From the NCBI GenBank assembly GCA_947474435.1, contig CANJII010000016.1:1-64000 (forward strand): DNA of 64,000 nt. Reading direction: 5' to 3'. The notes beneath the pieces are model-generated. The model ran no database searches. It had not been told where the DNA came from and was given only the letters and a program-made list of their open reading frames with translations. The stretch comes from Chitinophagaceae bacterium. GTDB taxonomy: Bacteria; Bacteroidota; Bacteroidia; Chitinophagales; UBA10324. The translations under genes were made by a program, and so were the position numbers. This document shows positions 13,757 through 41,496 of this stretch, one piece after another. Position 1 is the first letter of the stretch. Each line of letters begins with the position of its first letter.

Positions 13757-14530
13757 TTAATTGTTATTCCAGACAGGTTTTCTTTTTTCTAAGAATGAAT
13801 TAATTCCTTCATTCGCATCATGTGTTTCCATTAATTGATTTACATACACTGCTTCCAACTGTGGAAGAAAATTACTGAGTACATGATTGAATTTTACTCG
13901 CGCTGCTCGCACAGCATAACGAAGCGAAGAAGCACTCTTTGGTAAAATATTTTTTTCAATCCAGGCATTCACACCTTCATCCAATAAAGTTTTATCATCA
14001 AATACATCATTCACCAATCCATACAATTTTGCTTCATCAGCAGAAATTATTTTTCCGGTAATGAGCATTTCTTCAGCACGGGCATAACCGATTTTTTCAG
14101 GGAGAATGATGGAAGCAGGAGGCGGAAAAACACCAAGAATAATTTCGGGCTGACCAAGTTTTGCCGTTTTATCAGCAAATAAAAAGTTGCACATGATTGC
14201 TACTTCCATTCCACCACCTAAACATTGACCTGAAATTTTTGCGAGTGTAGGAATGGATAAATCGCGAAGTGTAAAAAACAATTGATGAAACGAGCGAAGC
14301 ATGGCGGCTGCTAATTCCTTTGTGTGTTCTTCCACGCTTGCACCAAACGAAAAATGTTTTCCGGCACCTTCCATCACAATCAGTTTCAGTTCTTTTTTTT
14401 CTTTGAATGAATTGAAAACAGACTGCAATTCTTCCATCATAATGTAGTCGAGCACATTACCTTTTCCATCATCGAGCAGCACATGAGCCACTGAATTTTC
14501 ATTGGAGAAAGACAGCTTAATCTTTTGCAT
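13757..14530 (-). CDS. dch: Cyclohexa-1,5-diene-1-carbonyl-CoA hydratase
   Basis: A 257-aa crotonase that matches Dch/BzdW of Thauera and Azoarcus closely: KHFSFGASVEEH, GQCLGGGMEVA, LGQPEIILGVFPPPAS, SASSLRYAVRAAR, and a C-terminal HDANEGINSFLEKRKP ending. It adds water to the diene formed by benzoyl-CoA reductase, giving 6-hydroxycyclohex-1-ene-1-carbonyl-CoA, the substrate of Had at 27.5-28.7 kb. It is the first gene of the block running to at least 9.6 kb. An FNR-type box lies 49 bp upstream. The gene is separated from the other pathway genes by the nitrite/NO cluster. Confidence 0.88.
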   Translation of the reverse strand: MQKIKLSFSNENSVAHVLLDDGKGNVLDYIMMEELQSVFNSFKEKKELKLIVMEGAGKHFSFGASVEEHTKELAAAMLRSFHQLFFTLRDLSIPTLAKISGQCLGGGMEVAIMCNFLFADKTAKLGQPEIILGVFPPPASIILPEKIGYARAEEMLITGKIISADEAKLYGLVNDVFDDKTLLDEGVNAWIEKNILPKSASSLRYAVRAARVKFNHVLSNFLPQLEAVYVNQLMETHDANEGINSFLEKRKPVWNNN

Positions 14531-14572
14531 AAATTAATTTATACAAAGGGAAGGAATTATACCTTTATTGAA

Positions 14573-14586
14573 ATGATATAAATCAG
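14573..14586. promoter_or_regulatory. FNR-type box upstream of dch
   Basis: ATGAT-ATAA-ATCAG, matching TGAY-N4-RTCA, centred 49 bp upstream of the dch start. It sits in the 59-bp gap after the cytochrome b fusion gene, arguing that dch starts its own transcript. Confidence 0.5.
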
Positions 14587-14589
14587 TTG

Positions 14590-16485
14590 TCAGTGTGAAA
14601 GCACGAACTGTTTTTCGCTTAGTGTCAGCACTTCGCTGCCCCTCATTTCAAATAGCGGCGACTCAATAATAATTCCGGCAACTTCTGTTTCAGTTAAAAT
14701 CACTTTTACTTTTCCGTTCAGTAAAACCTCATCATAAATTGTAATGGTTGAATTTTTCCGGAAGCCGTGTGGTGAATATTTTTTGGAATATAATTCTTGT
14801 CCGCTCTCCGAAATTATTTTTATCTCAATGGCACTTCGTTTTAAAACAATCGGCTTGAGTGAACTCATGTGTTTTTCCAAGGTTGCATAACTCTGTGTTT
14901 CCGTTGGTGATGAAGTGTACTTAAAATTCAGAATTAATATTTTTCTGTCCTTTGGAAAAAATGCAACATCACGATTGCTTAACAATGGGATTGACAGAGA
15001 AAGCAGCAATGAAATAATTGTGGCAACAACATAATTTGGTTTTAAATATTCCTTGATAAAAGATTTTTTATCCTGAATTGATATGGCTCCGCTATTTAAT
15101 TCAGATTGAAATTTTTCCAATTCCGATTTCAGATTAGCGGATGGAAGTTTTAAAAACCGGATATTGTTCAACGAATATTTTGATTCGAGAGTTGGTCGCC
15201 GCTTATGCGAGAGCCGTAAAGTTTCCCATTCACTTCCATAGCGATGATAGCAGGACTCGCAGGCAGCAAACACAACTCCCTTCACTCCGTGTTCAAAAAC
15301 TTTTTCTACATCATTCACATGCACAGAACCAACACAGGGCACGACAAATTTTTTTATTTTTTCTGAATCAATATTTGCAATTGGGAAATAACTGCACGAA
15401 TAAATTGCCAGTTCTTTGTTGGCTAAATCATCAGTGGTTTTAAGTGCATCAAGTACACTGAATGTAATTGCACCATGCTTGCATGATGCATTGCAAATCC
15501 CGCAACTCACACATCGCGATTGATTTAATTCTGCTTTCTGTTCTTCACCAAAATATTTTATTGATATGGCATCGTACGGGCAATCGCTCTGGCATTGCTT
15601 GCATGCATTGCAGTTTTCTTTATCAATAACAGGAGTGAGTTTATTCGTTTTGCGAACGAAAAGCGGAATGCTGCTGAGTGCTGCAACAGTAAGTACCAAC
15701 CACAACAACAACCATTTTGCAGAAATAAATTTCAGGAAATAAAAACCTGCGAAGTAATACCAATCGAACGAAGAGTGATAGGGCATTGGCGATGAAGAAG
15801 CAGGCGCATCACTGATTACAGGAAATAAAAAACAAATGAAAACTAAACTGATAGTTACGAGGTACCATAATTTTTTTGGTGGTAAGTACATGGGTTTCGA
15901 TATGCGAACAACATGCAGGTAAAGTATCACCACAAAAAAAAGTGTGAGAAAAAAATGCACAGCGAAAGCAATCCTAAAAAACCCGCTCAGTGCCTGTAGG
16001 TCTTCTGTAATAAACATTCCGGAAAGCGAGGGGTTGACAATGGAAATGGAAGTCAGCAATTTGGTTGATAAAAATCCAATGAGTTTTGCTTTCTCATCCC
16101 ACACTAAAAAAAATCCGGTTAAACCGAGAATCAGTACCAACAAAAAACTAATGAAGCCGGTAACCCAGGGAAGAAACCGTTTGTATTTACCGATAATTAA
16201 CTGATGCAAAAAATGAAGCAATGCGGTAATTACCAAAGCATCAGACGAATAACGATGAAGACTTCGCATGATGCCACCAACCCATTGCCTGGTAATCATC
16301 TCTGTTGAGTTGTAGGCTTCCGACGGGTCAATTTTATAAAAGATGAAAAGATAAAGTCCGGTTATAGTTGCAATGAGAAATGATAAGACCGAAATTGAGC
16401 CAAGGTGATAAAACGGATTGAATTTCGTTGAAAAAAAGCGGCTGAAGAGAGAAGCGAACTTCAGATAAATCTTATGTCCGTTCAT
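14590..16485 (-). CDS. Cytochrome b / two-[4Fe-4S] ferredoxin / MvhD-like fusion membrane protein
   Basis: A 631-aa protein of unusual build. Residues 25-275 are a cytochrome b (b6-like N-terminal) domain with both heme His pairs, H77/H91 and H177/H191, each 14 apart. Residues 285-342 hold two [4Fe-4S] ferredoxin motifs (C292, C295, C298, C302 and C325, C328, C331, C335). Residues 360-440 resemble the hydrogenase iron-sulfur (MvhD/FlpD) domain with C364, C384, C409, C412. A last membrane helix (about 468-488) is followed by a 140-residue soluble tail without obvious homology. It looks like a quinone-linked module that passes electrons to or from a low-potential soluble partner. It is the last gene of the NO-reductase-like operon, 10 bp after the preceding gene. 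Its role is unknown. Confidence 0.75.
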   Translation of the reverse strand: MNGHKIYLKFASLFSRFFSTKFNPFYHLGSISVLSFLIATITGLYLFIFYKIDPSEAYNSTEMITRQWVGGIMRSLHRYSSDALVITALLHFLHQLIIGKYKRFLPWVTGFISFLLVLILGLTGFFLVWDEKAKLIGFLSTKLLTSISIVNPSLSGMFITEDLQALSGFFRIAFAVHFFLTLFFVVILYLHVVRISKPMYLPPKKLWYLVTISLVFICFLFPVISDAPASSSPMPYHSSFDWYYFAGFYFLKFISAKWLLLWLVLTVAALSSIPLFVRKTNKLTPVIDKENCNACKQCQSDCPYDAISIKYFGEEQKAELNQSRCVSCGICNASCKHGAITFSVLDALKTTDDLANKELAIYSCSYFPIANIDSEKIKKFVVPCVGSVHVNDVEKVFEHGVKGVVFAACESCYHRYGSEWETLRLSHKRRPTLESKYSLNNIRFLKLPSANLKSELEKFQSELNSGAISIQDKKSFIKEYLKPNYVVATIISLLLSLSIPLLSNRDVAFFPKDRKILILNFKYTSSPTETQSYATLEKHMSSLKPIVLKRSAIEIKIISESGQELYSKKYSPHGFRKNSTITIYDEVLLNGKVKVILTETEVAGIIIESPLFEMRGSEVLTLSEKQFVLSH

Positions 16486-16494
16486 AATGAGTTT

Positions 16495-18519
16495 TTATTT
16501 CTTCCAATATAACCTGACAAAATAAAACAGGATGGCAACCATAGTAACGAAGCTGATTGCAACTTCGGTTATGAAACTGCTGTCGAGAATAAAAGTTTTT
16601 GAAACAGGGTCCCATGCAAAGCACCGGATGTAAAGTCCATCAAAAACACCAACCGATGTTTGCTCATTGCGTGCTTCGATAACAGAAATGTTTAAGTCGT
16701 GAACCTTAGGGGTGATTCCATAAATATATCGGGAGATTTTTCCGGTGGGAGTTACCATCACCACCAGATTCGGATGGTCGTATTGTTCTGCATCGTTGTT
16801 CCATTCAATATCAAAATCAATGGACGACAATAATTTTTTTATATCATTTCCATTGGCAGAAACAATGTTCCAGTTTGTTTCATCTAATTTCCATCGCTCA
16901 CCAAAAGTTTTTAAATCAGTTACTGCATCAGTAGTGTCGAATGAAAATGTTATGACCTGAAAGTTGGTTCCGAGTCCGCCCATTTCATCCACCACACTTT
17001 TTAAATTACTGGTAATAACAGAGCAGGAGTGAGGGCACTTGGTATAAACTGGGCTCAGTATGGTTGGTTTGTTTTTTATCAGATCGTACAAAAAAAAACT
17101 TTCGGCTTTTGAATTGAACACACGAATGTTTGCGACTTGCTTTCCGAGAAAATTATTTTCGTTCGGAGTTTGAAACGAACAACTGATAAGTGCGATAACT
17201 GAAATCAGTAAAACAGTTTTTTGCCTTGTGCGGATTTTAAATAAAGAACTTACACTGTAAAAAATAAAAAGCATTCCACCCGAAACAGAAAGTGTGGCTC
17301 CGATGGCAAGGAAATTCAAATCACTCAGCACTGATTTATTTACAATCCAGTTGAAGCCAAATGTTTTTCGTGGGGCTCCATAATACCCTGCAAAAAATAA
17401 ACAGAGAATTAATACAATCATTCCGATAGAAAATATGGTTGGTTGAATGCGCGCCAGCTTTTCGTATTTCAGAATGTTATTCTTTTTCAAAATAAAATAA
17501 GTGACTCCCATGAGTGCAACGGTGAGTGCAGCTACTACTCCGTGATAATGTGCTGTAATGCGCAAATCACTTTTCATTCCACCGTAAGCAATAAAAATTC
17601 CGGTGTAATAAAGTATCACTGAAAATAAAAAGGTGTTGCCGGCAAAATTTCCGAATTTCACCTTACGGATTAAAAAAATGGTGTGAATTAAAACAGGAAC
17701 TCCCAATCCGACTCCATAAGAAAATATTGTGAGCAACTTAAATGCAGGTGAAACCGGATCAACAAAAAAACCGAACAGAATCGGAACTATTGAAAGAAGT
17801 AAAACTGCATTTGCAATTTTTATCCAGGTGTTTAATTGCAATCCTTCCGAAAAATCTGGGTTTGATTTTCTCACCAACAAATGCCACGACAACAATAAAA
17901 TAAATGCATTCAGAAATTGTTGAATGTGACCGGGCACCCAAAAAATGCGCAGGAAGTATAATTTGTTATCAGCAATTTGTTCTGTGATGAAATAAGAAAT
18001 TACTCCAGCTGCAATCATCACTATTGAAACAATCATGGAGAAAACAACCAACTGCCCTTCCGTATTTTTTTGAATTAATTTTTTACTGTACGGAAGAAAT
18101 TTAGAGATGGAAAGAATAAATGAAATGAAAAATAACATAATACCAATCCAGAAAACAGGATGACTGATAACCGGTAAATAATCGTTAAGGTATGATTCAC
18201 CTAAATTGATAAAACCTAATGATGCAATTAAAACGCAAGAGATGAGTGCGAATAAAAATGCCATTGTATCAAAGCGGCTTCTGGCTTCAGGAACATACTG
18301 ATGCCACATGCAAACAGTAAACATCATTAACCAGATAATCATAGCAAACACCACATGCACACACAACGCGCGATAAAAATATGTGGCTGAGAAAAAAACA
18401 GAGAATGCTGGAATTCTTGCAAAGGAAATAACCACTGCAAAAAACCCTGTGAAACTAATAGCGACTATTGCTAAAATTAACCAGGCAATATTTAAGTTTC
18501 TTGAAATCCAATTGCTCAT
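16495..18519 (-). CDS. Heme-copper-oxidase-like subunit I lacking CuB His pair, fused to SCO domain
   Basis: A 674-aa protein. Residues 1-430 form about 12 membrane helices related to the neighbouring subunit I. Heme ligands are present: H55 (helix II), and H324 and H326 (TAHYHG, helix X), and H198 of helix VI (PGHIQQ) remains. But the helix VII His-His pair that binds CuB is replaced by F249-G250 (aligned through the shared VDP motif), so a normal binuclear centre cannot form. Residues 445-640 are an SCO1/SenC domain with CPHSC (C495, C499) and H582, the copper ligands, then a last membrane helix. SCO proteins deliver copper to CuA. The gene starts 2 bp after subunit I. It may be an accessory subunit plus built-in copper chaperone. 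Confidence 0.75.
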   Translation of the reverse strand: MSNWISRNLNIAWLILAIVAISFTGFFAVVISFARIPAFSVFFSATYFYRALCVHVVFAMIIWLMMFTVCMWHQYVPEARSRFDTMAFLFALISCVLIASLGFINLGESYLNDYLPVISHPVFWIGIMLFFISFILSISKFLPYSKKLIQKNTEGQLVVFSMIVSIVMIAAGVISYFITEQIADNKLYFLRIFWVPGHIQQFLNAFILLLSWHLLVRKSNPDFSEGLQLNTWIKIANAVLLLSIVPILFGFFVDPVSPAFKLLTIFSYGVGLGVPVLIHTIFLIRKVKFGNFAGNTFLFSVILYYTGIFIAYGGMKSDLRITAHYHGVVAALTVALMGVTYFILKKNNILKYEKLARIQPTIFSIGMIVLILCLFFAGYYGAPRKTFGFNWIVNKSVLSDLNFLAIGATLSVSGGMLFIFYSVSSLFKIRTRQKTVLLISVIALISCSFQTPNENNFLGKQVANIRVFNSKAESFFLYDLIKNKPTILSPVYTKCPHSCSVITSNLKSVVDEMGGLGTNFQVITFSFDTTDAVTDLKTFGERWKLDETNWNIVSANGNDIKKLLSSIDFDIEWNNDAEQYDHPNLVVMVTPTGKISRYIYGITPKVHDLNISVIEARNEQTSVGVFDGLYIRCFAWDPVSKTFILDSSFITEVAISFVTMVAILFYFVRLYWKK

Positions 18520-18520
18520 T

Positions 18521-20188
18521 TTATTTTATTTCCCAAATCACTGACAACCATTTCCAATTCAGGTAGAAGAAAATGACGAAGGTGGCCATGAACACCAATG
18601 CAAAAATTAATGTACCAGGTGCTTCGTATTTTCCTTTCAGGTGAACGGCAGGTGCTTCGGCAACTATTGCCAACTGCATGTCTTCAGGGCCTTTAACTTT
18701 TGGTCCGAAGAAAACAGAAAACACAACAATTAAAATCCAACTCAATGCACCTAAGAATGCAAGCACGCCACCGAGTACTGTTACAATCCAAAGCAAACCT
18801 GTAAGCGGATTAAATTCATTTGTGAAAGGACCACCTGCAAAAGTTGTATCGTAATGTCTTCTCGGAACTCCAAGAAATCCCAACGACATCATGCCAATGG
18901 ATATTAAAGAGATTCCGATTCCGAACATCCATGGTTGCCATTGTGCCAGTTTGAATGCAACAATTTTCCGTCTGAAAATAAGTGGAATTAAATAGTAAGT
19001 GATTCCCATAAAAGTTAAACTGGTTCCTAAAACAACAGTGCCTTTAAAGTGACCGGTAATTCCAATTGTATTGTGAACGATAATATTTGTTTGTTCCATT
19101 CCGAAAATAACTCCGGTTATTCCACCCAAAAATCCAAAACCAACTATCGCAATTATTACTGATGAGAAAGCAGGATTTCCCCATGGAGAATTTTTTAACC
19201 AATCAAATAATCCATTGGTAAATCCATTTCTTCTTTGTGCTGATTCTATTGTCGATGGAACTGCAAACGCATGAATCATGGAAGCTAACACTGCGAGATA
19301 CATGGCGTAACCGGTGTTCCATATTTTCCATGCAGGATTTACTGCTGGGTCAACCAGCAAGTGGTGAGCTGATGCAATACAGATAAATAAAATGTATAAC
19401 ACAAACGCACCGCGCGAAACTTTTTCGTTAATGGATGTTCCGCCAACTGCCAACCGTGATACCAAGTACCAGATTGAAATCATGGCGGCCACATTTATTT
19501 GTTGCGATGAGTGACCGAGTCCCCACCACACTAAGCGATACCAGGATGGGTCAACACTGCCGAGTAACCCGAGTGCCCACAGGTAAGTTGGAATGTATAC
19601 AATGGCACCAGTTGTTAATGTTATGACAGCAATTACTGCCGCCACAAATAATCCGTAAGTAAAGAGCGGAAGAGTTTTGCCCACCTTGCCTTCCTTCTTT
19701 GCATAATATATGTTCACAAAAAACAGACTGGTAGCAACCAAAGCACCAACGGCAAACAAAATTATTCCCAGATAAAAATTCGGACTCGCACGCAGTGGAA
19801 CATACGATGTCATTAACACATCAGCCTGGCCGGTCATTATATTCCAGTCAACTAAAAGAAATCCGGCAACCATTAATGCGAATGCGAGCCAGCCGACTTT
19901 TGGTAAAACCATTCGCGCGTTCAGCACCACTGTGGAACCGAAATACAAACCTGCAATTTCAAAAAACACAATCCAGAAAATCAATGCATTTATTCCATGC
20001 AGCGTAAGAATGCGATAATACCACACCTGCGAAAGCAAGTGCACTTCTTCCCATCTTGTAAAAATTAATAGTATGGCTCCCACCACTGCAATTAGCAATG
20101 TGATGACAGCCAACACAGCGTTAATCCTGATTAAGCTTTGCCCCTTCAGGTCAACTTTTAAACCGGTTATATCACAAGTACGAAACAT
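18521..20188 (-). CDS. norY: Heme-copper oxidase/NO reductase subunit I (B-type-like, no Tyr, HFK motif)
   Basis: A 555-aa subunit I with about 13 helices. Ligands: H64 (helix II, low-spin heme), H226, H275 and H276 (CuB), H380 (high-spin heme). The residue four after H226 is Gln230, so the cross-linked Tyr of O2 reductases (H-x3-Y) is missing, a trait of NO-reducing members. The helix X motif is G-H-F-K: the second His that binds the low-spin heme is Lys382. The surrounding VHNT...GHF pattern places it with B-type (ba3-like) enzymes. With a CuA subunit II upstream and an SCO domain downstream, the locus resembles the norSY-senC (sNOR) operons of ammonia oxidisers, and it lies beside nirK. 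I infer NO reduction; O2 reduction is not excluded. The symbol follows that analogy and is tentative. Confidence 0.7.
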   Translation of the reverse strand: MFRTCDITGLKVDLKGQSLIRINAVLAVITLLIAVVGAILLIFTRWEEVHLLSQVWYYRILTLHGINALIFWIVFFEIAGLYFGSTVVLNARMVLPKVGWLAFALMVAGFLLVDWNIMTGQADVLMTSYVPLRASPNFYLGIILFAVGALVATSLFFVNIYYAKKEGKVGKTLPLFTYGLFVAAVIAVITLTTGAIVYIPTYLWALGLLGSVDPSWYRLVWWGLGHSSQQINVAAMISIWYLVSRLAVGGTSINEKVSRGAFVLYILFICIASAHHLLVDPAVNPAWKIWNTGYAMYLAVLASMIHAFAVPSTIESAQRRNGFTNGLFDWLKNSPWGNPAFSSVIIAIVGFGFLGGITGVIFGMEQTNIIVHNTIGITGHFKGTVVLGTSLTFMGITYYLIPLIFRRKIVAFKLAQWQPWMFGIGISLISIGMMSLGFLGVPRRHYDTTFAGGPFTNEFNPLTGLLWIVTVLGGVLAFLGALSWILIVVFSVFFGPKVKGPEDMQLAIVAEAPAVHLKGKYEAPGTLIFALVFMATFVIFFYLNWKWLSVIWEIK

Positions 20189-20191
20189 AGT

Positions 20192-20770
20192 TTATGGATT
20201 TTTTGGTTGAGTAAGTTTTAAATTCTGAATCTCTTCCTGGGTTTCAACCACAATTATTTTTCCAATCATGGTTTGATGTCCGATGCCGCAAAATTCATTA
20301 CAGAACATTTTGTAATCGCCTGCTGCGTTGGGTTTAAACCGCAACACATAATCATAACCGGGCAGCACCATAAAATTCATGTTGATTGGTTGCACTGAAA
20401 AACCATGACACACATCGGCTGATGATAAATGAAAAGTGTACCACTCATTTTTTACCAGCACCGGAATAGATGACCAGCGCCACATTTGCGCGGTTAAAAA
20501 AACATCGCCGTTTGATGGTGGCGCCACTACCGGAATTCCATTCTCTTCACCTATCTGATGTTTTTTATTAAACGCTTCGGAAAGTTGCATGAACTCTGCC
20601 TCCTTAATTTTATAGGTTTGATGTCCCGGATTTTGTTTTCCGTACACATGCCATATTACCATCCAGAAAAATGTAATAAGACACACGGTGGCTGCTAATG
20701 CAACCCACCATTTTTCATCGCTGGCAACTTTTTTCGAGTACCAACCTTCTGCCGGTGCGTGTAAACTCAT
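20192..20770 (-). CDS. norS: CuA-containing subunit II of the NO reductase/oxidase
   Basis: A 192-aa cytochrome oxidase subunit II. One N-terminal membrane helix (about residues 22-42) anchors a periplasmic cupredoxin domain. The CuA site is complete: H122 (VCHGFS), then C157, C161, H165 and M168 in FCNEFCGIGHQTM. The single helix is typical of B-type enzymes. It receives electrons from cytochrome c, plausibly the product of the c-type cytochrome gene 190 bp upstream, and passes them to subunit I, whose gene begins 3 bp downstream. Symbol by analogy with sNOR and tentative. Confidence 0.82.
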   Translation of the reverse strand: MSLHAPAEGWYSKKVASDEKWWVALAATVCLITFFWMVIWHVYGKQNPGHQTYKIKEAEFMQLSEAFNKKHQIGEENGIPVVAPPSNGDVFLTAQMWRWSSIPVLVKNEWYTFHLSSADVCHGFSVQPINMNFMVLPGYDYVLRFKPNAAGDYKMFCNEFCGIGHQTMIGKIIVVETQEEIQNLKLTQPKNP

Positions 20771-20776
20771 AGCAAT

Positions 20777-20944: not shown

Positions 20945-20959
20945 GAGTTAGAAATTAAT

Positions 20960-21448: not shown

Positions 21449-21502
21449 AACAGTGCGATTTTTTATCGCAATAAATATCACACCACCATGTGCCGGTGCT
21501 CA

Positions 21503-21516: not shown

Positions 21517-21517
21517 G

Positions 21518-21536: not shown

Positions 21537-21590
21537 ACAGTTTTATTTATGAATTGAACTCAGCAAAAACATTGATGCAATAAAAATATT

Positions 21591-33498: not shown

Positions 33499-35649
33499 TC
33501 AATCTTTTTTAATTTTTATTCTTGCGTCAACAACAAATGCTTTGTCTTCAAATGCCATGATTGGATTCAAGTCCATTTCCTGTATCTGCGGAAAATCTGT
33601 AACGAGTTGTGAGATGCGCTGAATAATTTCAATTACACTTTGTTTGTGAATTCCTTTTTCTCCTCTCACTCCATCCAGCAATTTTGAAGTTTTAATTTGT
33701 GAAAGCATTTCGTTTGCCTCCATTTCAGTTACAGGAGAAATTTTAAACACAACATCTTTCATCACTTCAACATAAATTCCTCCAATGCCGAACATGATGA
33801 GGTGACCTAAATCTTTTTTCGCACTTACACCTGCAATCAGTTCTCTGCCATCGGATAAAAATTTCTGGACAAAGAATTTCAAATCTTTCGCTTCAAAAGC
33901 TTTTTTCATTTTCTCTACTGTTGCTTTTACTTCATCTGCATTTTTCAGATTGATAACAACACCACCGGAATCGCTTTTGTGAACCAATGATTCAGCATCT
34001 GCTTTTATCACCACAGGAAATCCGATTTCTTCTGCTGCTTTAATTGCATCGTTCACATCGTTTGCAATTTGCCAATCAGCTACCGGAATTTTATATTGAG
34101 AAAGAATATTGTAAGTCTGTGCTGATTTGAGAAATTCTTTTTTCTCATTCTTAGCTTGCAGTAAAATATTTTCCACTTCAGTTTTATTTACATCATTAAA
34201 AATTTTTGCTTCACCAATATTTCTGTTTTGCACTTTGTAATATTTATACAATGCACCCAATGCTTTTGCAGCAGTAGTGGGGAAGCTGTAACAAGGCACA
34301 CCACCATCTTTTAAAATTTTAGCTGTCACTTGGAAACGCTCCAAACTCATATTCGTCATGAAGTTGCAGACAATGGGTTTGCGTTTCTGTTTGTTGACTT
34401 CAACAATTTGTCTCGCAACTTCATCAGTATCGGTAAATGGTGCTGTTACAAAATTTATATAAACTGAATCAATGGTTTCTTCTTGCATCAACACATCAAG
34501 CGCACTGCGAAAATGTTTTCCTCCACCTGTTGCAACCACATCAATCGGGTTTCCGATGGTTGCTTCAGGAAGCATTGTTTCTATTAAAATATTTTTTGCT
34601 CTATCAGATAAAGCAGGAAGTTGCAAACCTGCACTCACTAATTCATCTGTTGCAATCACTGCCGGCCCTCCGGAGTTGGTGATAATACCAACACGATTTC
34701 CTTTCGGAATGGGTTGTGTAGAAAATGCCATTGCCGCCTGACACATTTCTTCTTCGTTATTGAAAGCAAGAATTCCGGTCTTTTCAAAAATTAATTCAGT
34801 GGTAATATCAACTCCTGCAAGCGAACCGGTGTGTGAAGCTGCCGCTTTCGCGCCTTCTTCAGTACGACCTGATTTCATAGCAAGAATTGGTTTCTTCTTC
34901 GAAACAATTTTTGCCACATCCATAAATTCTTTCGGCTTGTGAAATCCCTCAGTATATAAAATGATGGCTTTAGTTCCATCATCATCGCCATAATATTTCA
35001 CCACTTCAGAAATAGAAACATCACACGCATTTCCGTTGGAAGCGTACATGTGCATTCCGATTTCCAAATCAAACAAACTTTGCATGATGAATGCGCCAAC
35101 ACCACCACTCAGAGCAACAATGGAAATACTTCCGGGTTTCGGAAAAGTGAAAGTGAAATCGCAATACGCATTGTACTGCGGGTCGGCATTAATTATTCCC
35201 TGGCAATTGGGGCCAAAAATCCTGACTCCATATTTTTTTGCATTTGCAAGAAATGCTTTTTGCAATGCTACTCCTTCCTCACCCATCTCACTGAAACCTG
35301 CTGAGTTGATGATAACAGATTTGATTCCGCGCTTACCGCAATCTTCAATGATCTGCGGAACAAATTTGCTCGGGATAATTACATGTGCGAGGTCAATATC
35401 ACCGGGCACATCAAAAATTGTTGGGTATGCTTTTATATCTCTGACTGTTGGTTCCTTCGGATTGATGGGAAAAATTTTTCCGGTGTAACCATAGTGAATC
35501 AGATTTTTCAGAATCACATTGCCGATGGAAAGTTCTTTTGATGAAGCGCCAATGATGGCAATTGCTTTCGGTTTGAAAAGTGAATCAAGTTCATGAACTG
35601 ATTTTTCATTCACTGTTATTTTGGTTTCATTTTCTAAAATCGCTTCCAT
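33499..35649 (-). CDS. NDP-forming acyl-CoA synthetase (fused alpha and beta)
   Basis: A 716-aa ADP-forming acyl-CoA synthetase. Order: CoA-binding Rossmann domain (IAIIGASSKELSIGN, about residues 30-160), succinyl-CoA-ligase-like domain with the phospho-His in AAASHTGSLAG, then an ATP-grasp domain from about residue 495 (IGFPVVIKADAESLVHKSDSGGV). Relatives act on acetate, propionate, phenylacetate or indoleacetate. No AMP-forming benzoate-CoA ligase is visible in the window, so this is the best candidate for activating benzoate or 4-hydroxybenzoate; alternatively it recovers ATP from an acyl-CoA product. It is 11 bp downstream of bcrD. Confidence 0.85.
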   Translation of the reverse strand: MEAILENETKITVNEKSVHELDSLFKPKAIAIIGASSKELSIGNVILKNLIHYGYTGKIFPINPKEPTVRDIKAYPTIFDVPGDIDLAHVIIPSKFVPQIIEDCGKRGIKSVIINSAGFSEMGEEGVALQKAFLANAKKYGVRIFGPNCQGIINADPQYNAYCDFTFTFPKPGSISIVALSGGVGAFIMQSLFDLEIGMHMYASNGNACDVSISEVVKYYGDDDGTKAIILYTEGFHKPKEFMDVAKIVSKKKPILAMKSGRTEEGAKAAASHTGSLAGVDITTELIFEKTGILAFNNEEEMCQAAMAFSTQPIPKGNRVGIITNSGGPAVIATDELVSAGLQLPALSDRAKNILIETMLPEATIGNPIDVVATGGGKHFRSALDVLMQEETIDSVYINFVTAPFTDTDEVARQIVEVNKQKRKPIVCNFMTNMSLERFQVTAKILKDGGVPCYSFPTTAAKALGALYKYYKVQNRNIGEAKIFNDVNKTEVENILLQAKNEKKEFLKSAQTYNILSQYKIPVADWQIANDVNDAIKAAEEIGFPVVIKADAESLVHKSDSGGVVINLKNADEVKATVEKMKKAFEAKDLKFFVQKFLSDGRELIAGVSAKKDLGHLIMFGIGGIYVEVMKDVVFKISPVTEMEANEMLSQIKTSKLLDGVRGEKGIHKQSVIEIIQRISQLVTDFPQIQEMDLNPIMAFEDKAFVVDARIKIKKD

Positions 35650-35659: not shown

Positions 35660-36499
35660 TTACACTGCCACCGCTTGTTTTTCTTTTAGTTTAATATGTC
35701 TGAATCCTCCCCACAATGCTGCGCCAATTGCGCCTGCATAACCAGCATCAGGGTGAGTTTTTATTTCGAATTTTTTTCCGGTTTCTGTTAATTGTTCTTC
35801 AATGGCCTGCAACATTCCTTTGTTCAATGCCATGCCTCCGGTGAGAATGATTGGCGATTCACCTTTGAGAGAACTCAATAATTTTATTATTCTGTTTGCA
35901 ATGGAAAGATGAATTCCTTTGATGATATCAGGAGTAGTAATGCCACGCGATACCATATTGATAACATCTGTTTCAGCCAACACTGCACATATTCCGGATG
36001 AAATTTCAGGTGCTGTTGCGGTCAGCGAAACATCTCCTACTTCTTCGATAGATAAACCAAGGTAGCGCGAAATATTTTCTACGAATTGTCCGGAGCCCGA
36101 AGCACATTGACCAGTCATTTTATAATCTTCCACTCTTGCATCAGCAGAAATTTTTACCGCACGCACATACAATGCGCCCATGTCAACCACAGTTCTTGCA
36201 TCAGGAAAAAAGAAGTGAGCGCCTTTGGCGTGAGTGGTCATTCCATAAAAGTGTCCGCGCTTGCGTTTTACCAAATCACCTTCACCTGTTGATGCGAGGT
36301 AGGCGATGTCTTCATACTTCAGATTATTTTTCAGGAGCATTGCTGATATCATTTCATCGGCAACAGTTGTCGGATTCCGCTTTCTGATTTTTTCGGTTTG
36401 CTTATCAATGAGCGTTGGATTTTCGGAGTAATCCATCAAAACCAATTTGATGAAATTGCTTCCGACATCTATTCCCATTGTGAAAAATGAATTTTCCAT
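35660..36499 (-). CDS. bcrD: Benzoyl-CoA reductase subunit D (ATPase)
   Basis: A 279-aa ASKHA-fold ATPase of the BcrD/BadG/BzdQ type: GIDVGSNFIKLVLMD (phosphate 1), VDMGALYVRAVKI, QCASGSGQFVENIS (cluster Cys), SSGICAVLAETDVINM (second cluster Cys), LTGGMALNKGMLQAIE (adenosine motif) and a C-terminal GYAGAIGAALWGG. With BcrA it hydrolyses ATP and passes electrons from a bridging [4Fe-4S] to BcrBC. It is the last gene in the order C-B-A-D, the same order as in Thauera aromatica. Confidence 0.9.
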   Translation of the reverse strand: MENSFFTMGIDVGSNFIKLVLMDYSENPTLIDKQTEKIRKRNPTTVADEMISAMLLKNNLKYEDIAYLASTGEGDLVKRKRGHFYGMTTHAKGAHFFFPDARTVVDMGALYVRAVKISADARVEDYKMTGQCASGSGQFVENISRYLGLSIEEVGDVSLTATAPEISSGICAVLAETDVINMVSRGITTPDIIKGIHLSIANRIIKLLSSLKGESPIILTGGMALNKGMLQAIEEQLTETGKKFEIKTHPDAGYAGAIGAALWGGFRHIKLKEKQAVAV

Positions 36500-36516: not shown

Positions 36517-37938
36517 TTATGCTACTGCTTTTTCTTTTTTTGCTGAGGGTAAATCCACATTCATGTTCCTTCTCGCGAACATGGCACCACCTAAGGCTCC
36601 CATGAAAATGGAATCGGTATGAATATTTATTTTGATGTTGTCGCCATAATTTTCTTTCACCAATTGAGTGAGATATTTTATCACTGCAGGATTTCTCGCC
36701 ACACCGCCGGTGAAAGTGAATTCATTAAACACACCACCTGAGCGCGCAATCAATGACATGGCGCGCATGATGATTGCTTTATGCAAACCACCGAGGATGT
36801 CTTCTTTTTTCTCTCCGAGATTGGTTAGTTCGCGTAACTCTGCTCCGGCAAAAACAGTGCAGGTGGAACATATGGTGACTTCTTTTTCTGATTTCATAGC
36901 CATTGGACCGAGTTCATTCAAGGAGATACTCATCTCATCAGCGATGTATCCTAAATATCTTCCGCAACCTGCAGCGCAACGGTCGTTCATCTGGAAACTT
37001 GTAACGAGACCATACTTGTCAACCTGAATTGCTTTTGTATCCTGACCACCAATGTCAAGCACCGTGCGTGTTTCAGGAAAGATGGCATGCGCACCAAATG
37101 CGTGACACAAAATTTCGGAACGAATACAATCTTCAGGAAACGGAAGTAACGCGCGACCATAACCAGTACCGGTCATGTTAGTAATGTTGAAGTCAAGGTT
37201 TGCTATTTCATCAATGTGTTCGCGCAGCGATTCTGAAACTTGCTTGAAATTTCCTTTCAGGAGATTCATCTCCGCATCAAAATTTACGCTGGTATCTTCA
37301 GGTGTAGTTTCAGGAAGGTTGTGATATTTCTCCCGAAGCTCATCCATTGCTTTATGAATGAGTTCCTGGAAGTTGAATTGAACACGAACATTTTCAGCAG
37401 GAGAAATACTCTTATCCCACACGGTCATCAATGGTTCGAAGAGTGACATCTCTAATTTGTTCACCTCCTCATTATACTTCTCTGAAACTATATCGCGGAA
37501 GAATTGATTTTTCGCACCGAGATTATTATACAGATAATCATGCTTGATAACCGGTTTGAAAGCTTTGCGGATATTTCGTAAATGCGTAATCATCTGCAAT
37601 TGCTTTTCTTCATCAGTAAAAAAAGAATAACAGGTTTTCAATAGCTCCTCACCCAATTTATCGAGGCGAACTTTAAATTGTTCGTACTGAAAAACACTTT
37701 CCAGATCAGTAATGTACTTTTTGTACTCGGGCTTCGCTTTCATTTCTTCTTCTAATTTTTTCTGAAGAATGGAAAATCGTGCATTGTAAATTGCTTCGTC
37801 ACGCGCAATGTCTGCAGCAACAGAATAATTAGCGCGCGTGTTGGTTATGCCACGACCAATGATTTCATCCTGTTCATTAATAATTACCGCTTTTGAAGTT
37901 GTGGAACCAAGGTCAACTCCGAGAAAATATTTGTTCAT
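36517..37938 (-). CDS. bcrA: Benzoyl-CoA reductase subunit A (ATPase)
   Basis: A 473-aa ATPase of the BcrA/BadF/BzdP type. Motifs: FLGVDLGSTTSKAVI, LDIGGQDTKAI, MNDRCAAGCGRYLGY, ICSTCTVFAGAEL, and FTGGVARNPAVIKYL. The long helical insert (about residues 45-230, RFSILQKKLEEEM onward) is typical of BcrA and absent from BcrD. I use ATG 37938, directly before the phosphate-binding strand; upstream sequence in frame belongs to the preceding gene. It is slightly longer than the roughly 437-residue relatives. Forms the ATP-hydrolysing half of the reductase with BcrD. Confidence 0.9.
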   Translation of the reverse strand: MNKYFLGVDLGSTTSKAVIINEQDEIIGRGITNTRANYSVAADIARDEAIYNARFSILQKKLEEEMKAKPEYKKYITDLESVFQYEQFKVRLDKLGEELLKTCYSFFTDEEKQLQMITHLRNIRKAFKPVIKHDYLYNNLGAKNQFFRDIVSEKYNEEVNKLEMSLFEPLMTVWDKSISPAENVRVQFNFQELIHKAMDELREKYHNLPETTPEDTSVNFDAEMNLLKGNFKQVSESLREHIDEIANLDFNITNMTGTGYGRALLPFPEDCIRSEILCHAFGAHAIFPETRTVLDIGGQDTKAIQVDKYGLVTSFQMNDRCAAGCGRYLGYIADEMSISLNELGPMAMKSEKEVTICSTCTVFAGAELRELTNLGEKKEDILGGLHKAIIMRAMSLIARSGGVFNEFTFTGGVARNPAVIKYLTQLVKENYGDNIKINIHTDSIFMGALGGAMFARRNMNVDLPSAKKEKAVA

Positions 37939-37960: not shown

Positions 37961-38380
37961 TTAATTCTGAGTATTTGAGCGTGCGAGTTTGCGCATCCAT
38001 TTCCAGTGCGTTGTAAAAAGTATAATGCATATGGCCAGCAGAATTCCACTAACTATTATCGTGCGATTGGCATCATGCTTTTCCTTATTTATTTTTTCCG
38101 CTTTCGCTGATTCATACATGGCACGAAGTGTTTGATCATCGGGTGTATAGTTTGAATTAGCTGCTCCACCATTTTGTTGCGAAGATTTCATCATATCCAT
38201 TTTATAATTTTCATAAGATGCAAGTGAGGGTGCGTTTTCGCGCATATAACCGGCATGAAGCGGATCACCAAGATCAATTACTGCGTTGATCATTGAAGTA
38301 GTACAAATCAGAAAAGTGATTACTGAAACGAGGCAAACCAAGTAACCATATACTTGTGCCATTTGATTGGGCTTATTCAT
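37961..38380 (-). CDS. Two-transmembrane protein inserted in the bcr operon
   Basis: A 139-aa protein with an N-terminal helix (YGYLVCLVSVITFLICTTSMI), an extracytoplasmic or cytoplasmic loop of about 75 residues rich in Asn, Lys and Met (SYENYKMDMMKSSQQ, TPDDQTLRAMYESAKAEK), and a second helix (IIVSGILLAICIILFTTHW). No family symbol comes to mind. It lies between bcrB and bcrA, which are adjacent in other class I loci as I remember them. It may tether the soluble reductase or its electron supply to the membrane; that is conjecture. Confidence 0.75.
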   Translation of the reverse strand: MNKPNQMAQVYGYLVCLVSVITFLICTTSMINAVIDLGDPLHAGYMRENAPSLASYENYKMDMMKSSQQNGGAANSNYTPDDQTLRAMYESAKAEKINKEKHDANRTIIVSGILLAICIILFTTHWKWMRKLARSNTQN

Positions 38381-38420: not shown

Positions 38421-39722
38421 TTAAACTGTTGCTTCTTCCTGTGCCATTATTACTTTTCGCTGACCAAGCATCTGGAAATAAGATTCCAAACGATTCTTAA
38501 TGTTTGCATAAGAGAAATAGCGCGGGTCAACCAAATCACTTTCAATAAAACCAACCGGAACTCCGGCGCGCTGTTCTATCTCACGCATAATCATTAACTG
38601 CCCCGCTGAAAAAGAATTACAACTCTTGATGGAGTTAATTAAAAATCCATCGGCTTTGTATTCCTTCACATAATCAGCTAACAGGTTTACACGCTGAGGC
38701 AAATTCAAATTGGTGTAACAGCCCATGCAATATTTTGCCAGACTTTCGAGCGGAAATTTTTCATCGTGACGAAACCCTAAATCATACACGCCGCCAACTT
38801 TTGTATAAGATGATGCAACTATCACCGCGCCCATGTCATAAAATATTTTCCAGAACTCGCGGAAGTTGGTCCAATTCGGTGGACCTTCTACAACAAGTCG
38901 AAATTTTTCTTCTTTCAATTCTCCTTCAGGAGTAATGGGACCTAAACCCAATCGCATTCTTTCCTGCACTTCATTCCACAACTCAGTGTAATATTCCACT
39001 GCTTCATCAGTTCCACGGAATGCAGTGAAGATGGGACCGATGTAATAAACACCTGCGAAGTAGGCATCAATGGGGGATGGTTTATTTTTCGCGCTCTCTA
39101 AAATTTTCACTAACAAATCTTCGGACTTCGCAGAGTTCACCATCATTTCTGATAAGCGCTGCATGTCAAATTTCTTCCCTGCAACCATTTCCATTTTCGG
39201 AATCACCTCTTCTTTCAGTTGCTTCACCATGTAATCAATCTGCTCTTGCGTGATGCAACCATCTTCCTGATAAGGAGTGTGCAACATGGCAACAGGTACT
39301 CCGGGATATAACCGTTCTAAATTTTCAAACCACTTCATAAAAGTGAAACAGCCGGTGTAACTCAGCAACAACAAATCAGGCGGAGGTAATTTTTCTCCTG
39401 TGGGTCCGATGTTTCCGTTGAGCATCATTCCGATATCACACTTCACATAAGTGCATACATCTTCACTGAAGCCAAGTTTCTCGGCTTCCCTAATATATGC
39501 AGCAGATTTTTTTCGCATGCCAGACTGCAACGCATTTATTTCCGGATAAACAGGCAGCATATCAAACGATAAAATCAATTCAGTCAGATTGCCTGGAACA
39601 AAAGTGTAGACCACTTTTTTCCCCGATTCTTTTGTGTTGCTCAGTTCTTTAAAAAGATTGGCCAGCATGTCTTTTTGAATCACCATGCTTTTTTCTTTTA
39701 TCGCTTCTTTCGGGTCTGCCAT
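38421..39722 (-). CDS. bcrB: Benzoyl-CoA reductase subunit B
   Basis: A 433-aa BcrB/BadE/BzdO-type subunit. Cluster Cys candidates are in EDVCTYVKCDIGMML, LSYTGCFTFMKWFENL and NSIKSCNSFSAGQL; NLTELILSFDMLPVYPEINAL and the central SPIDAYFAGVYYIGPIFTAFRGT block are typical of this subfamily. BcrBC carry the clusters and the substrate site, reducing benzoyl-CoA to cyclohexa-1,5-diene-1-carbonyl-CoA. It lies 78 bp after bcrC, a somewhat longer gap than elsewhere in the operon. Confidence 0.9.
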   Translation of the reverse strand: MADPKEAIKEKSMVIQKDMLANLFKELSNTKESGKKVVYTFVPGNLTELILSFDMLPVYPEINALQSGMRKKSAAYIREAEKLGFSEDVCTYVKCDIGMMLNGNIGPTGEKLPPPDLLLLSYTGCFTFMKWFENLERLYPGVPVAMLHTPYQEDGCITQEQIDYMVKQLKEEVIPKMEMVAGKKFDMQRLSEMMVNSAKSEDLLVKILESAKNKPSPIDAYFAGVYYIGPIFTAFRGTDEAVEYYTELWNEVQERMRLGLGPITPEGELKEEKFRLVVEGPPNWTNFREFWKIFYDMGAVIVASSYTKVGGVYDLGFRHDEKFPLESLAKYCMGCYTNLNLPQRVNLLADYVKEYKADGFLINSIKSCNSFSAGQLMIMREIEQRAGVPVGFIESDLVDPRYFSYANIKNRLESYFQMLGQRKVIMAQEEATV

Positions 39723-39800
39723 TTTGAATTAAGATTTTAGATTTTGTTTTCTCGCTTATTTTTTTCTCGCTTATTTTTTGCTAATTGCTAATAGCTTTTC

Positions 39801-40964
39801 TCACGCCCACAGTTTTATTGAATCAGAAAAAGTTCCGGCTTGTTCTTTTATCACTTTGAATTGACCGGTGTTTTCGTGATACTGAAAATTGATGTGCGGA
39901 ATTCCTACGGCATCACATTCCTTTTGCAACTCCGGTCTGTCGAGCAATGCGGGGTCGCAGAAACTTGCTGCACTGAAAATCACACCATCAGCATTTCTGT
40001 TTTTTGCTAACTGAACCAATCTTTTTCCTTTCGGATTTCCAACATCATAAACAGCAGAAGAGAAAGTGCTCTTCGTTAGATAAGCATTCACCAAGGCTCC
40101 CAGCGGGTCGTTGGTATCATCTTCAACATCACCTTGTATCCATCTTGAACCGAGCATGAAGTCATCGTCAACAATGTAACAACCCGCCATCTCTATGGAT
40201 TTTATTAAACCAAGAGGAGGTTGCTCGCAGAACGAACCATTAATAACCACACGGATATTATCCATTGGTTCACCACTTTCTTCAGTGATGTTTCCAATGA
40301 CTTCTTCCAGAATTTTATTGTGGTTTTCCACCGTAATACTTAATCCGGCGCGAACAATTTTGTAAGTATCAACCGCAGATAATCTCCAAGGATATTCCTG
40401 ACGAATGTTATAAATTTCTTCAATCAGTTTTCTGTTTGTGTTATAAAGTTTTATGGATTGATTGAGATTTTCGGTTGTGAGTTTTACTCCGTTCACTTTA
40501 AAAACATCTTCACTGATTTTATGTAATTCCTGATTATAAAAAACACCACCAATAGATGCATCAAAGTTTTGCGGGTAATCAAAGTACCGTTGAAACTGTC
40601 CCTTCTTCGCCAACTTAAACATGCCTGATAAATTGCGAACACAATCGCAAATGGCAGGGAAAATAAATCCATCAAAAGTTTCCAGGCTATGATCGAGCGC
40701 CATTTCTATAATGCCACGAGGCAAGTGACAGATGTAGGATTGATAATAGGCATCGCCTTTAATTATTTGTTTGTGATCGCCGGCACCCATCACACCAATA
40801 GCTAAACCATTTACTGCATGAATAATTTCACGCGGAAAATAGATTGGCAGAAAACCAACCAGCGCACGATTGCTCTTTTCGGTTTTCCATTTCTTGGCGT
40901 AAGTAAAATTCAAGTCGAACGCTACTTCATTGCAATAAGTCAGTATATCATTTAACGGTCTCAT
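39801..40964 (-). CDS. bcrC: Benzoyl-CoA reductase subunit C
   Basis: A 387-aa BcrC/BadD/BzdN-type subunit, the same length class as its relatives. Family segments: GFLPIYFPREIIHAVNG and LAIGVMGAGDHKQI, Cys at YICHLPRGIIEMAL, FPAICDCVRNLSGM and SAASFCDPALLDR, and GSFCEQPPLGLIKSIE in the C-terminal half. It is the partner of BcrB. Its ATG (40964) lies inside the end of the hemerythrin gene, a 17-bp overlap, so the two are translationally coupled. Confidence 0.9.
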   Translation of the reverse strand: MRPLNDILTYCNEVAFDLNFTYAKKWKTEKSNRALVGFLPIYFPREIIHAVNGLAIGVMGAGDHKQIIKGDAYYQSYICHLPRGIIEMALDHSLETFDGFIFPAICDCVRNLSGMFKLAKKGQFQRYFDYPQNFDASIGGVFYNQELHKISEDVFKVNGVKLTTENLNQSIKLYNTNRKLIEEIYNIRQEYPWRLSAVDTYKIVRAGLSITVENHNKILEEVIGNITEESGEPMDNIRVVINGSFCEQPPLGLIKSIEMAGCYIVDDDFMLGSRWIQGDVEDDTNDPLGALVNAYLTKSTFSSAVYDVGNPKGKRLVQLAKNRNADGVIFSAASFCDPALLDRPELQKECDAVGIPHINFQYHENTGQFKVIKEQAGTFSDSIKLWA

Positions 40965-41496
40965 CTAATTTGAATTTGAAATTTTTTATAAAATTTTCCA
41001 GATCGTCCTTTCGCTCAATACCGAGTTCGTTATCTATGTCAATACATCTATAGTATAGATTTTCCAATTCACTCTCACTTAAAATAGTATCAGCCATTGG
41101 AAATAATTCTTCATTCTCAGCTGCAATGTGATCGAGCAAATCATGACTGTACTCTTTAATTTTCTGTTGTGCTTCGGGGTATTTTCTTCCAGCCAAATCA
41201 GTTTTTATTTTCCCAACCAACGCACGAAAGTCTTCGTGATGTTCGAGCAACTCATTGATAACAGCAGTTGCAGAAGGTTCTTCCATTTTTAATAAAGCAG
41301 GAAAAAGAATTTCTTCTTCTTTGTAATGATGATACTGGTCAGAATATTCTTTGAAGAAAACCAGTAACTCCTTTAAATTATTTTCATACAGTTCAGAGTT
41401 GGTTTCCCATGATTTATCAAGGGAAGAAGCAATCTGTATTGCTTCGAGAATGATGGCGTGTTCGCCATACATTACATTGGAAATTTTTGAAACCAT
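40948..41496 (-). CDS. Hemerythrin-like (HHE) protein leading the bcr operon
   Basis: A 182-aa four-helix hemerythrin-like protein with the expected iron ligands: GEHAIIL, YHHYKEEEILFPAL, ELLEHHEDF and LLDHIAAENEELFPMA. Such domains bind a di-iron site and sense or scavenge O2 or NO, or repair Fe-S damage. I use ATG 41496; the frame extends nine codons upstream to TTG. As the first gene of the operon, overlapping bcrC, it may protect the very oxygen- and NO-sensitive reductase. The FNR-type box is 57 bp upstream. Confidence 0.8.
   Translation of the reverse strand: MVSKISNVMYGEHAIILEAIQIASSLDKSWETNSELYENNLKELLVFFKEYSDQYHHYKEEEILFPALLKMEEPSATAVINELLEHHEDFRALVGKIKTDLAGRKYPEAQQKIKEYSHDLLDHIAAENEELFPMADTILSESELENLYYRCIDIDNELGIERKDDLENFIKNFKFKLDETVK

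Follow-up and report, generated by a model that had tools for sequence, protein, structure and literature searches.

A Bacteroidota genomic island with a predicted class I benzoyl-CoA pathway and a recurrent BCR/HAD-family module

Can a member of the Bacteroidota carry the full class I (ATP-dependent) benzoyl-CoA pathway, and what are the further genes that travel with it? The question is raised by a stretch of 64,000 bases from a Chitinophagaceae bacterium (the window; bases 1-64000 of the 70,256-base contig C16), whose genome comprises 3.5 Mb in 98 contigs and is 99.9% complete and 0.31% contaminated. Sediments, groundwater and digesters commonly harbour Bacteroidota, which tend to be regarded as scavengers of polymers and biomass. 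A previous sequence-only reading of the window had listed bcrCBAD, dch, had, oah, a thiolase and a 3-hydroxyacyl-CoA dehydrogenase fusion. Our analysis indicates that the window carries a Bacteroidota catabolic island whose core is predicted to be a class I benzoyl-CoA pathway of the Bcr subtype, a reading to which we assign a probability of about 0.8. The genes, their families, invariant residues and conserved order, and the host lineage are observed, whereas activity and substrates are inferred.

Profile scans with NCBIfam, in which each score was compared with the curated cut-off of the family (in bits), confirmed all the listed genes, and all of them (bcrC, bcrB, bcrA, bcrD, oah, had, dch, the thiolase and the fusion of 3-hydroxyacyl-CoA dehydrogenase, HACD, with enoyl-CoA hydratase, ECH) lie on the minus strand (Table 1). 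Each of the four reductase subunits matched its own family, BcrC and BcrB above and BcrA and BcrD below the cut-off, and the downstream enzymes Dch (under its cut-off), Had and Oah were all present. The open reading frame (ORF) of bcrA as listed begins too early (38049); the Met at residue 38 fits the relatives and places the start at 37938. The order bcrC-B-A-D is, we assume, that of Thauera. In the bcrB-bcrA gap there is an extra gene of 139 amino acids (aa) here (37961-38380) and a different one of 372 aa in locus L072 (11376-12494).

We counted the recurrence of genes over 89 loci, grouping ORFs of at least 90 aa; many of these loci end early, at contig ends or at the 10-kb flank. Left out of this grouping, and of the ligase, ≥7-kb, residue (77-87, 42 and 28 rows) and ferredoxin-ORF counts below, were the second copies of contigs (L068, L082, L084, L092, L098, L126, L138 and L140) as well as G545 and G024b. 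BcrB recurred in 87 loci, BcrC in 83, BcrA in 82 and BcrD in 77, followed by the thiolase (39), Had (37, +8), Oah (34), Dch (24) and HACD-ECH (11 + 6). Cluster-type Cys were conserved in the catalytic and ATPase subunits alike (77-91 rows): five are invariant in BcrA (82/82 rows), BcrB (87/87) and BcrC (91/91, some contigs' second copies included) and two, C132 and C171, in BcrD (77/77), and these residues presumably act as cluster ligands. No ferredoxin-like short ORF recurred, as ORFs of 45-160 aa with one CxxCxxCxxxC motif were found in 5/89 loci and with two in 1/89. The cluster thus resembles the known class I reductases (Thauera BcrCBAD, Rhodopseudomonas BadDEFG) in its four subunits, hidden Markov model matches, invariant Cys and co-located dch, oah and had. 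It differs from them in its Bacteroidota host, in the scores of bcrA, bcrD and dch, which stay below the cut-offs, and in the presence within the run of HadB2, a PanE-activase fusion and a ligase (see below); it also differs from Thauera, whose bcr run we take to hold a ferredoxin gene, in having no recurring gene of this kind.

The sequence-only reading had left out an enzyme resembling 4-hydroxybenzoyl-CoA reductase (HCR; 1676-5438), the HadB2/PanE-activase module, the ADP-forming ligase and a NirK block. The HCR-like enzyme belongs to the cluster, its alpha and beta subunits recurring in 35 and 30 of the 89 loci, respectively. Its beta subunit has the [4Fe-4S] loop, the four Cys of which align with those of Thauera HcrB (1rm6_B) and are kept in 28/28 relatives, and alpha and beta both score best in HCR families. 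Unlike in Thauera HcrABC (1rm6), gamma and alpha form one fused protein of 941 aa, and the gamma part is nearer to xanthine dehydrogenase: it scores 164 bits as XdhC and 152 bits in TIGR03193 (cut-off 258), which ranks third behind two other families. As alpha, beta and gamma all fall below the curated equivalog cut-offs, we name HCR as the nearest enzyme and not as a proven equivalog.

Taken together, these genes would make the route from 4-hydroxybenzoyl-CoA to crotonyl-CoA complete on paper, since genes for all its enzymes were found, that of glutaryl-CoA dehydrogenase on another contig of the genome (L185). The molybdenum enzyme probably dehydroxylates 4-hydroxybenzoyl-CoA to benzoyl-CoA, BcrABCD would reduce the ring at the cost of ATP, and Dch, Had and Oah would open it, after which the HACD-hydratase fusion and the thiolase may shorten the chain to glutaryl-CoA, to be converted by the glutaryl-CoA dehydrogenase from elsewhere in the genome to crotonyl-CoA. 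Of the ten best PDB sequences for L185, nine are annotated as glutaryl-CoA dehydrogenases and the tenth is an acyl-CoA dehydrogenase; it scores highest with the enzymes of Thermus, Burkholderia-type and human origin (460-437 bits) and lies far away from 3mpi (230 bits). By eye, a glutaryl-CoA dehydrogenase-like protein is also encoded within the fetched stretch of five other loci.

Table 1. Features of the window, in window coordinates; scores and cut-offs are in bits.
Feature	Position	Strand	Basis
HCR-like beta (FAD) subunit with extra [4Fe-4S] loop	1676-2611	-	TIGR03195 212 (best), cut-off 405; best PDB match 1rm6_B
Fused iron-sulfur (gamma) and molybdenum (alpha) subunits of HCR-like enzyme	2613-5438	-	alpha TIGR03194 846, cut-off 995
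FabG-like short-chain dehydrogenase, conserved in cluster	9601-10404	-	NCBIfam FabG families; 50/89 loci
XdhC-type molybdoenzyme maturation factor	10304-11128	-	NF045664/TIGR02964; 38/89 loci
MocA-type molybdenum cofactor nucleotidyltransferase	11112-11741	-	NF045665, TIGR03310 best matches; 42/89 loci
HACD/ECH fusion	11741-13753	-	FadB/FadJ-type matches; HACD N-terminal, ECH C-terminal
dch, cyclohexa-1,5-dienecarbonyl-CoA hydratase	13757-14530	-	TIGR03189 229 (best family), cut-off 292.5
NirK/NO-reductase-like block, between oah and dch	14590-26332		NirK TIGR02376 346, cut-off 296
oah, 6-oxocyclohex-1-ene-1-carbonyl-CoA hydrolase	26389-27489	-	TIGR03200 607, cut-off 464
had, 6-hydroxycyclohex-1-ene-1-carbonyl-CoA dehydrogenase	27494-28657	-	TIGR03201 454, cut-off 339
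Acyl-CoA thiolase	28660-29979	-	TIGR01930 396, cut-off 241
PanE-family dehydrogenase fused to HadI/HgdC-like activase	29925-31781	-	TIGR00745, TIGR00241, above cut-off
p156, stand-alone C-terminal domain of AMP-forming ligase, five Cys	31778-32248	-	Pfam AMP-binding_C_3
HadB2, third BCR/HAD-family protein, HadB-like	32278-33495	-	NF052455 215 (best), cut-off 750
ADP-forming acyl-CoA ligase (ACD type)	33499-35649	-	NF045493 566, cut-off 1300
bcrD	35660-36499	-	TIGR02261 301, cut-off 313; best family by far
bcrA (start corrected)	36517-37938	-	TIGR02259 438, cut-off 578; best family by far
bcrB	38421-39722	-	TIGR02260 695, cut-off 487
bcrC	39801-40964	-	TIGR02263 453, cut-off 421
Hemerythrin-domain protein, often in cluster	40948-41520	-	PF01814; 24/89 loci
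Right island boundary: start of synteny with bcr-less genomes of the genus	41651		blastn against G003, G004

That a Bacteroidota genome holds the full class I set, as the sequence-only reading had proposed, is supported by further carriers in its order and phylum; the cluster is not confined to a single genome. BcrB was found in 15 of 396 genomes of the order, this one included, and in 9/164 genera. In the other 14 genomes BcrB is 72-90% identical and is accompanied by HadB2, and on the stretches fetched from the carriers of the order it is surrounded by other genes of the cluster. Two single-contig genomes of the same GTDB phylum and another class (G450, G674) also hold BcrB with the cluster. 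A scan of named GTDB genomes gave at least 594 pattern matches, and among the best 80 loci, which we used, 68 are by title Bacteroidota, three Ignavibacteriota, three Chlorobiota, two Pseudomonadota, one Armatimonadota and one Calditrichota, with two lacking a phylum. The two titled Pseudomonadota (L069, Competibacteraceae, and L097, Gammaproteobacteria) carry a Bacteroidota-type cluster with BcrB of 87 and 76% identity, which may reflect transfer or mis-binned contigs. Among 395 genomes drawn across the phylum, HadB2 of at least 65% identity was present in four, including this one, three of which also have BcrB. As BcrB was found in 0/5 genomes of the same genus and 0/10 of the same family, the spread is patchy, and the cluster has probably moved horizontally. 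A plasmid search with BcrB returned only distant family members (23-27% identity, nine records).

In this genome the cluster forms an island. From 41,651 to at least 60.6 kb the window is syntenic with two genomes of the genus, G003 and G004, while before this stretch blastn found no match to the 25 kb upstream in G003. AlaS and GatB, markers that the sequence-only reading had proposed for checking the origin of the contig, are present. AlaS is 90-95% identical in four of the five congeners (92 and 95% in G003 and G004), with the fifth yielding nothing at the limit applied; for the gene at 44367-45998, three of the five congeners have a counterpart of 91-94% identity. Only the right boundary is defined, because C16 begins at window base 1 and the left neighbour in the congener sits here on contig C37, followed, by eye, by genes resembling those of a TonB-type receptor, polyphosphate kinase and thymidine kinase. 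No long or strong repeats were seen around the boundary, and scans of the window for tRNAs and Rfam families were both empty. The native flank holds genes for an HMG-CoA-lyase-like protein (41665-42549), a 3-oxoacid CoA-transferase subunit (47383-48081) and 4-hydroxyphenylpyruvate dioxygenase (51526-52677), which probably belong to aerobic Tyr and Leu catabolism.

The sequence-only reading had confined class I reductases to Proteobacteria and a few archaea, a view that is out of date, as bcrABCD has been reported from Krumholzibacteriota of the FCB superphylum, with all four subunits in 12/40 representative metagenome-assembled genomes (MAGs) and a complete or near-complete route to 3-hydroxypimeloyl-CoA in 11 MAGs (PMC10936416). 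The same source gives no bcr or bam genes for 37 representative FCB genomes, a gap that the Bacteroidota finding fills. The Krumholzibacteriota, with a GC content of ~70%, are likened here by description and not by sequence; they share the superphylum and differ in phylum, and the available text names no HadB/PanE module (PMC10936416). We found no report of a class I reductase from Bacteroidota in the open-access literature, including the available text of PMC8099898, PMC10477309, PMC10116835 and PMC4846661; subscription papers and preprints were outside the scope of this search, and we claim no priority. Complete class I clusters in many Bacteroidota would place these bacteria among the primary anaerobic degraders of aromatic compounds.

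Two genes between the thiolase and bcrD recur with the reductase, namely HadB2, a member of the benzoyl-CoA reductase/2-hydroxyacyl-CoA dehydratase (BCR/HAD) family, and the PanE-activase. In the 60 loci that extend at least 7 kb beyond bcrD, the window excluded, HadB2 was present in 55, PanE in 56 and at least one of them in 58; in 20 shorter loci the counts were 10 and 8. The exceptions among the 60 are L087 and L128, which have neither within the stretch, L109, L119 and L120 (no HadB2) and L065 and L131 (no PanE); in L072, where bcrD was not found beside bcrA, both are absent. Over the 89 loci HadB2 and the PanE-activase each recurred in 63 (the latter with six more in a second group), PanE being fused to the activase in 42 and split or partly seen in 21. 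By these counts the two genes are nearly as constant a part of the run as the subunits of the reductase. The HadB2 genes of L127 and L137, from MAGs of different projects, are very similar (tree path ~0.06), which suggests recent movement of the module.

HadB2 has exactly five invariant Cys (C31, C80, C119, C290 and C347; 71 rows from 64 loci, including seven second copies of contigs). In a profile alignment with solved structures, C80, C119 and C347 align with the Cys of HadB, and the invariant E51 with Glu65 of BzdO, where Cys95, Cys128, Cys380 and Glu65 are described as the cluster and acid residues (PMC11971306, Nat Commun 2025). The nearest solved structure by profile is HadB (197 bits), ahead of MbdO (157) and BzdO (104), and the predicted model (pLDDT 90, pTM 0.89) likewise ranks HadB first by fold (3o3m_A, template modelling (TM) score 0.89), then MbdO, BzdO and DCCP. 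HadB2 thus combines the alpha fold, the three-Cys [4Fe-4S] site and the aligned Glu of the HadBC type. A dedicated activase with CAAGTG and a second Cys accompanies it, C472 and C511 lying in matching motifs in 42/42 fused relatives; its best PDB matches are HadI (4eht, 128 bits), HgdC (1hux, 121 bits) and MbdQ and DCCP-R (118 bits each). In the PanE part, Lys199, Asn203, Ser269, Glu281 and Ser207 are all kept in 42/42 fused relatives, the position of Ser207 being, we presume, Asn in ketopantoate reductases. The nearest PDB entries are all named 2-dehydropantoate 2-reductase and include what we take to be D-mandelate dehydrogenases. The module resembles HadBC/HadI in the HadB2 fold, the three cluster Cys and the HadI-like activase with two Cys; it differs in that no HadC was found, in two extra invariant Cys, in the fusion of the activase to PanE and in a ligase with a Cys-rich C-terminus, whereas the HadBC system employs the CoA-transferase HadA.

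The ligase of the module occurs in two unrelated types: AMP-forming in 38 of the 89 loci (under the length limit; 40 by grouping) and ADP-forming in 34, with no locus having both. Three stretches of the AMP type (G142, G125, L083) hold a further ADP-forming ligase, 29-30% identical and scoring 293-300 bits at a limit of 300, which was not counted as the cluster enzyme. The C-terminus of the full AMP-forming ligase carries five Cys, four of them kept in 45/45 rows and one in 44/45 (seven second copies included), the exception being L105 with one Cys changed to Tyr. In 20 loci this ligase was seen only as a stand-alone stump of 147-188 aa (no second copies; G024b, a contig-edge fragment of 225 aa, was excluded), like p156 in the window. 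The stumps keep 99/100 of the five-Cys positions, L074 having one Cys changed to Ser, while a Lys invariant in the 45/45 full ligases is kept in 2/20 stumps in a gappy alignment. By eye, the stumps of L078, L085, L127, L128, L131 and L133 still contain a decayed piece of the adenylation domain; two of the 20 stump loci, L128 and L133, have no ADP-forming ligase within the stretch. The fold matches of p156 are AMP-forming ligases, the best at E 1e-3 and TM 0.40 (model pLDDT 74). On the HadB2 tree, made by a quick method and with the long branch L108 flagged, the state with ADP-forming ligase and stump needs at least three changes, two of which are forced by the starred branches; the same decay with Cys retention has therefore probably occurred repeatedly, unless it was passed from one lineage to another. 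Most simply read, the stump is kept for its cysteines and not for ligation, and its adjacency to HadB2, whether fused to a ligase or not, makes the five-Cys domain a candidate partner of that protein. The Bacteroidales-type loci L112 and L118, however, have an ADP-forming ligase, a separate PanE and HadB2 but neither a stump nor a third activase within the stretch, which argues against an indispensable role of the stump.

Of the possible functions of the module, the one we consider most likely, at somewhat less than even odds, is that the ligase, HadB2, activase, PanE and five-Cys domain work like a 2-hydroxyacyl-CoA dehydratase, perhaps feeding aryl-lactates derived from Phe and Tyr into benzoyl-CoA. 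PanE would make an (R)-2-hydroxyacid and the ligase its CoA ester, from which HadB2 would remove water once the activase has charged it, possibly with the five-Cys domain as its partner in place of HadC. Phenyllactate and 4-hydroxyphenyllactate would be the natural substrates, aryl-lactates being the simplest choice because benzoyl-CoA and 4-hydroxybenzoyl-CoA form the hub of the pathway, and for a benzene degrader a published proposal leads from phenyllactyl-CoA via cinnamoyl-CoA to benzoyl-CoA (PMC13416013). That HadB2, the PanE-fused activase and the five-Cys domain form a new BCR/HAD branch, in which a single dehydratase-type subunit paired with a metal-cluster-carrying repurposed ligase domain would take aryl-lactates via cinnamoyl- and coumaroyl-CoA to benzoyl-CoA, is an unlikely extension of this proposal; if true, many Bacteroidota would possess a route for the anaerobic use of aromatic amino acids that has not been described before.

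A Bacteroidota genome with another type of reductase, G545, bears on this proposal. It belongs to the same GTDB phylum and encodes a Bzd-type reductase, with BzdN (485 bits), BzdO (659) and BzdQ (444) above their cut-offs, and has no BcrB at the limit used. Its ADP-forming ligase, near the bzd genes, is 59% identical to that of the window, and elsewhere it encodes HadB2 (65%, contig C37), two PanE (47%, C43 and C116) and an activase (49%, C82). The module may thus serve both subtypes of class I reductase; alternatively, what G545 has of it is the remnant of a lost bcr operon. A HisC-type aminotransferase beside one of the PanE genes was considered as support for aromatic amino acids and dropped. 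Contig C15 of G545 (L181, L182) combines the Bzd-type reductase with a ferredoxin-like gene and with an iron-sulfur protein of 860 aa that binds NAD(P).

Several observations weigh against a dehydratase fed by aryl-lactates. No HadC-type beta subunit was found, as the PF06050 search of seven bcr carriers gave exactly BcrB, BcrC and HadB2 in 7/7, so that we do not file HadB2 as a member of the 2-hydroxyacyl-CoA dehydratases; those known are heterodimers (PMC11971306). The extra invariant C31 and C290 stand where HadB has no Cys, and the cluster of HadB2 may therefore differ from that of HadB. The activase match to HadI and HgdC is only narrowly ahead of that to MbdQ, and for the gamma part of the molybdenum enzyme xanthine dehydrogenase is the slightly better match. 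In G545 the ligase lies near bzd and away from HadB2 and PanE, a position that fits a plain aroyl-CoA ligase equally well. A 251-aa fragment resembling BcrC (C13, L183; 37% identical to the window BcrC) is also retained in G545, whose HadB2 and PanE may hence derive from a bcr operon that it once had and whose value as a clean control is weakened; the aminotransferase of G545 is no evidence for aromatic amino acids, as it is the only HisC above the cut-off there. That a canonical benzoate-CoA ligase (TIGR02262) passes the cut-off in 0/11 genomes counts among the support for the dehydratase-like reading, yet for this reason the cluster ligase may equally be a benzoate or 4-hydroxybenzoate ligase.

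In an alternative that we regard as rather unlikely, an ordinary CoA ligase for aromatic acids feeds the reductases, while HadB2 and its activase act as a reductase of the double-cubane type (like the double-cubane cluster protein, DCCP) or as an electron relay for benzoyl-CoA reductase or another reduction. HadB2 shares with DCCP/DCCP-R the combination of one dehydratase-family protein with one activase and more than three cluster-type Cys. Three of its five invariant Cys match the [4Fe-4S] ligands of BzdO and HadB, and C31 and C290 match by eye Cys36 and Cys263 of BzdN, in which six Cys bind an [8Fe-9S] cluster (PMC11971306); Trp46 of BzdO, which fills the place of the lost sub-cluster, is an invariant Gly in HadB2. 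The place of the G545 ligase near bzd and the lack of a recurrent ferredoxin-like short ORF in the 89 loci point the same way. However, HadB2 has five Cys and not six, the sixth double-cubane Cys being without a counterpart by eye, it scores 54 bits in NF040772 against a cut-off of 350, DCCP comes after HadB, MbdO and BzdO in both the sequence and the fold comparison, and the fused 2-oxoacid reductase has no obvious role in an electron relay. A reversed 2-hydroxyglutarate route, in which glutaconyl-CoA formed from benzoate would take up water to give 2-hydroxyglutaryl-CoA, with ATP gained at the ADP-forming ligase and 2-oxoglutarate produced by PanE, appears distinctly improbable: the enzyme types it needs are in the gene run and ADP-forming ligases are reversible, but the glutaryl-CoA dehydrogenase of the genome is nearest to the Thermus, Burkholderia-type and human enzymes, which we take to decarboxylate, and far from 3mpi, which presumably does not. 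The similar dehydrogenases of the five other loci also speak against it, as does the AMP-forming ligase in 38/89 loci, which would not harvest ATP.

As for the island as a whole, its genes might come from contamination or a chimeric join and not from Bacteroidota, an explanation to which we give hardly any credence. The patchy presence (0/5 in the genus, 0/10 in the family), the GC content of 38.6% before the boundary against 35.5% after it, and the sharpness of the boundary at 41,651 would fit such a join. We dismissed a chimeric assembly on the contamination estimate of 0.31%, the other carriers, the synteny past 41,651, AlaS and the gene at 44367-45998; chimerism is very unlikely because BcrB and HadB2 occur together in 14 other genomes of the order and the same cluster in the two single-contig genomes of the phylum, because the same contig is syntenic with G003 and G004, and because 68 of the best 80 loci are titled Bacteroidota. 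For the class I pathway and its module in a Bacteroidota host, the near-constant BCR/HAD module and the decayed ligase with its kept Cys domain pose a testable question on how radical enzymes move low-potential electrons.

Other neighbours of the pathway genes are less constant. The block between oah and dch encodes, besides NirK, a ba3-like heme-copper subunit I with Gln in place of the active-site Tyr of ba3, a CuA subunit, SCO1, a cytochrome c, a COX1-SCO1 fusion and a cytochrome b/4Fe-4S protein. By its gene content it looks like a nitrite- and NO-reducing chain, for which we take bNOR to be the name, although a literature search on that name found no paper. Comparison with other loci showed there only pieces resembling cytochrome c, Crp and porins (23-39% identity). 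The protein at 5567-7999, described in the sequence-only reading as sorted by the type IX secretion system (T9SS), matched no T9SS family, and its C-terminus resembles by eye a type A sorting tail. In L112, a gene for a protein of the aldehyde:ferredoxin-oxidoreductase family lies with HdrA2-like and 4Fe-4S genes directly upstream of the Bacteroidales-type bcr locus (1507-8506), where they possibly form an electron-bifurcating or class II-like system.

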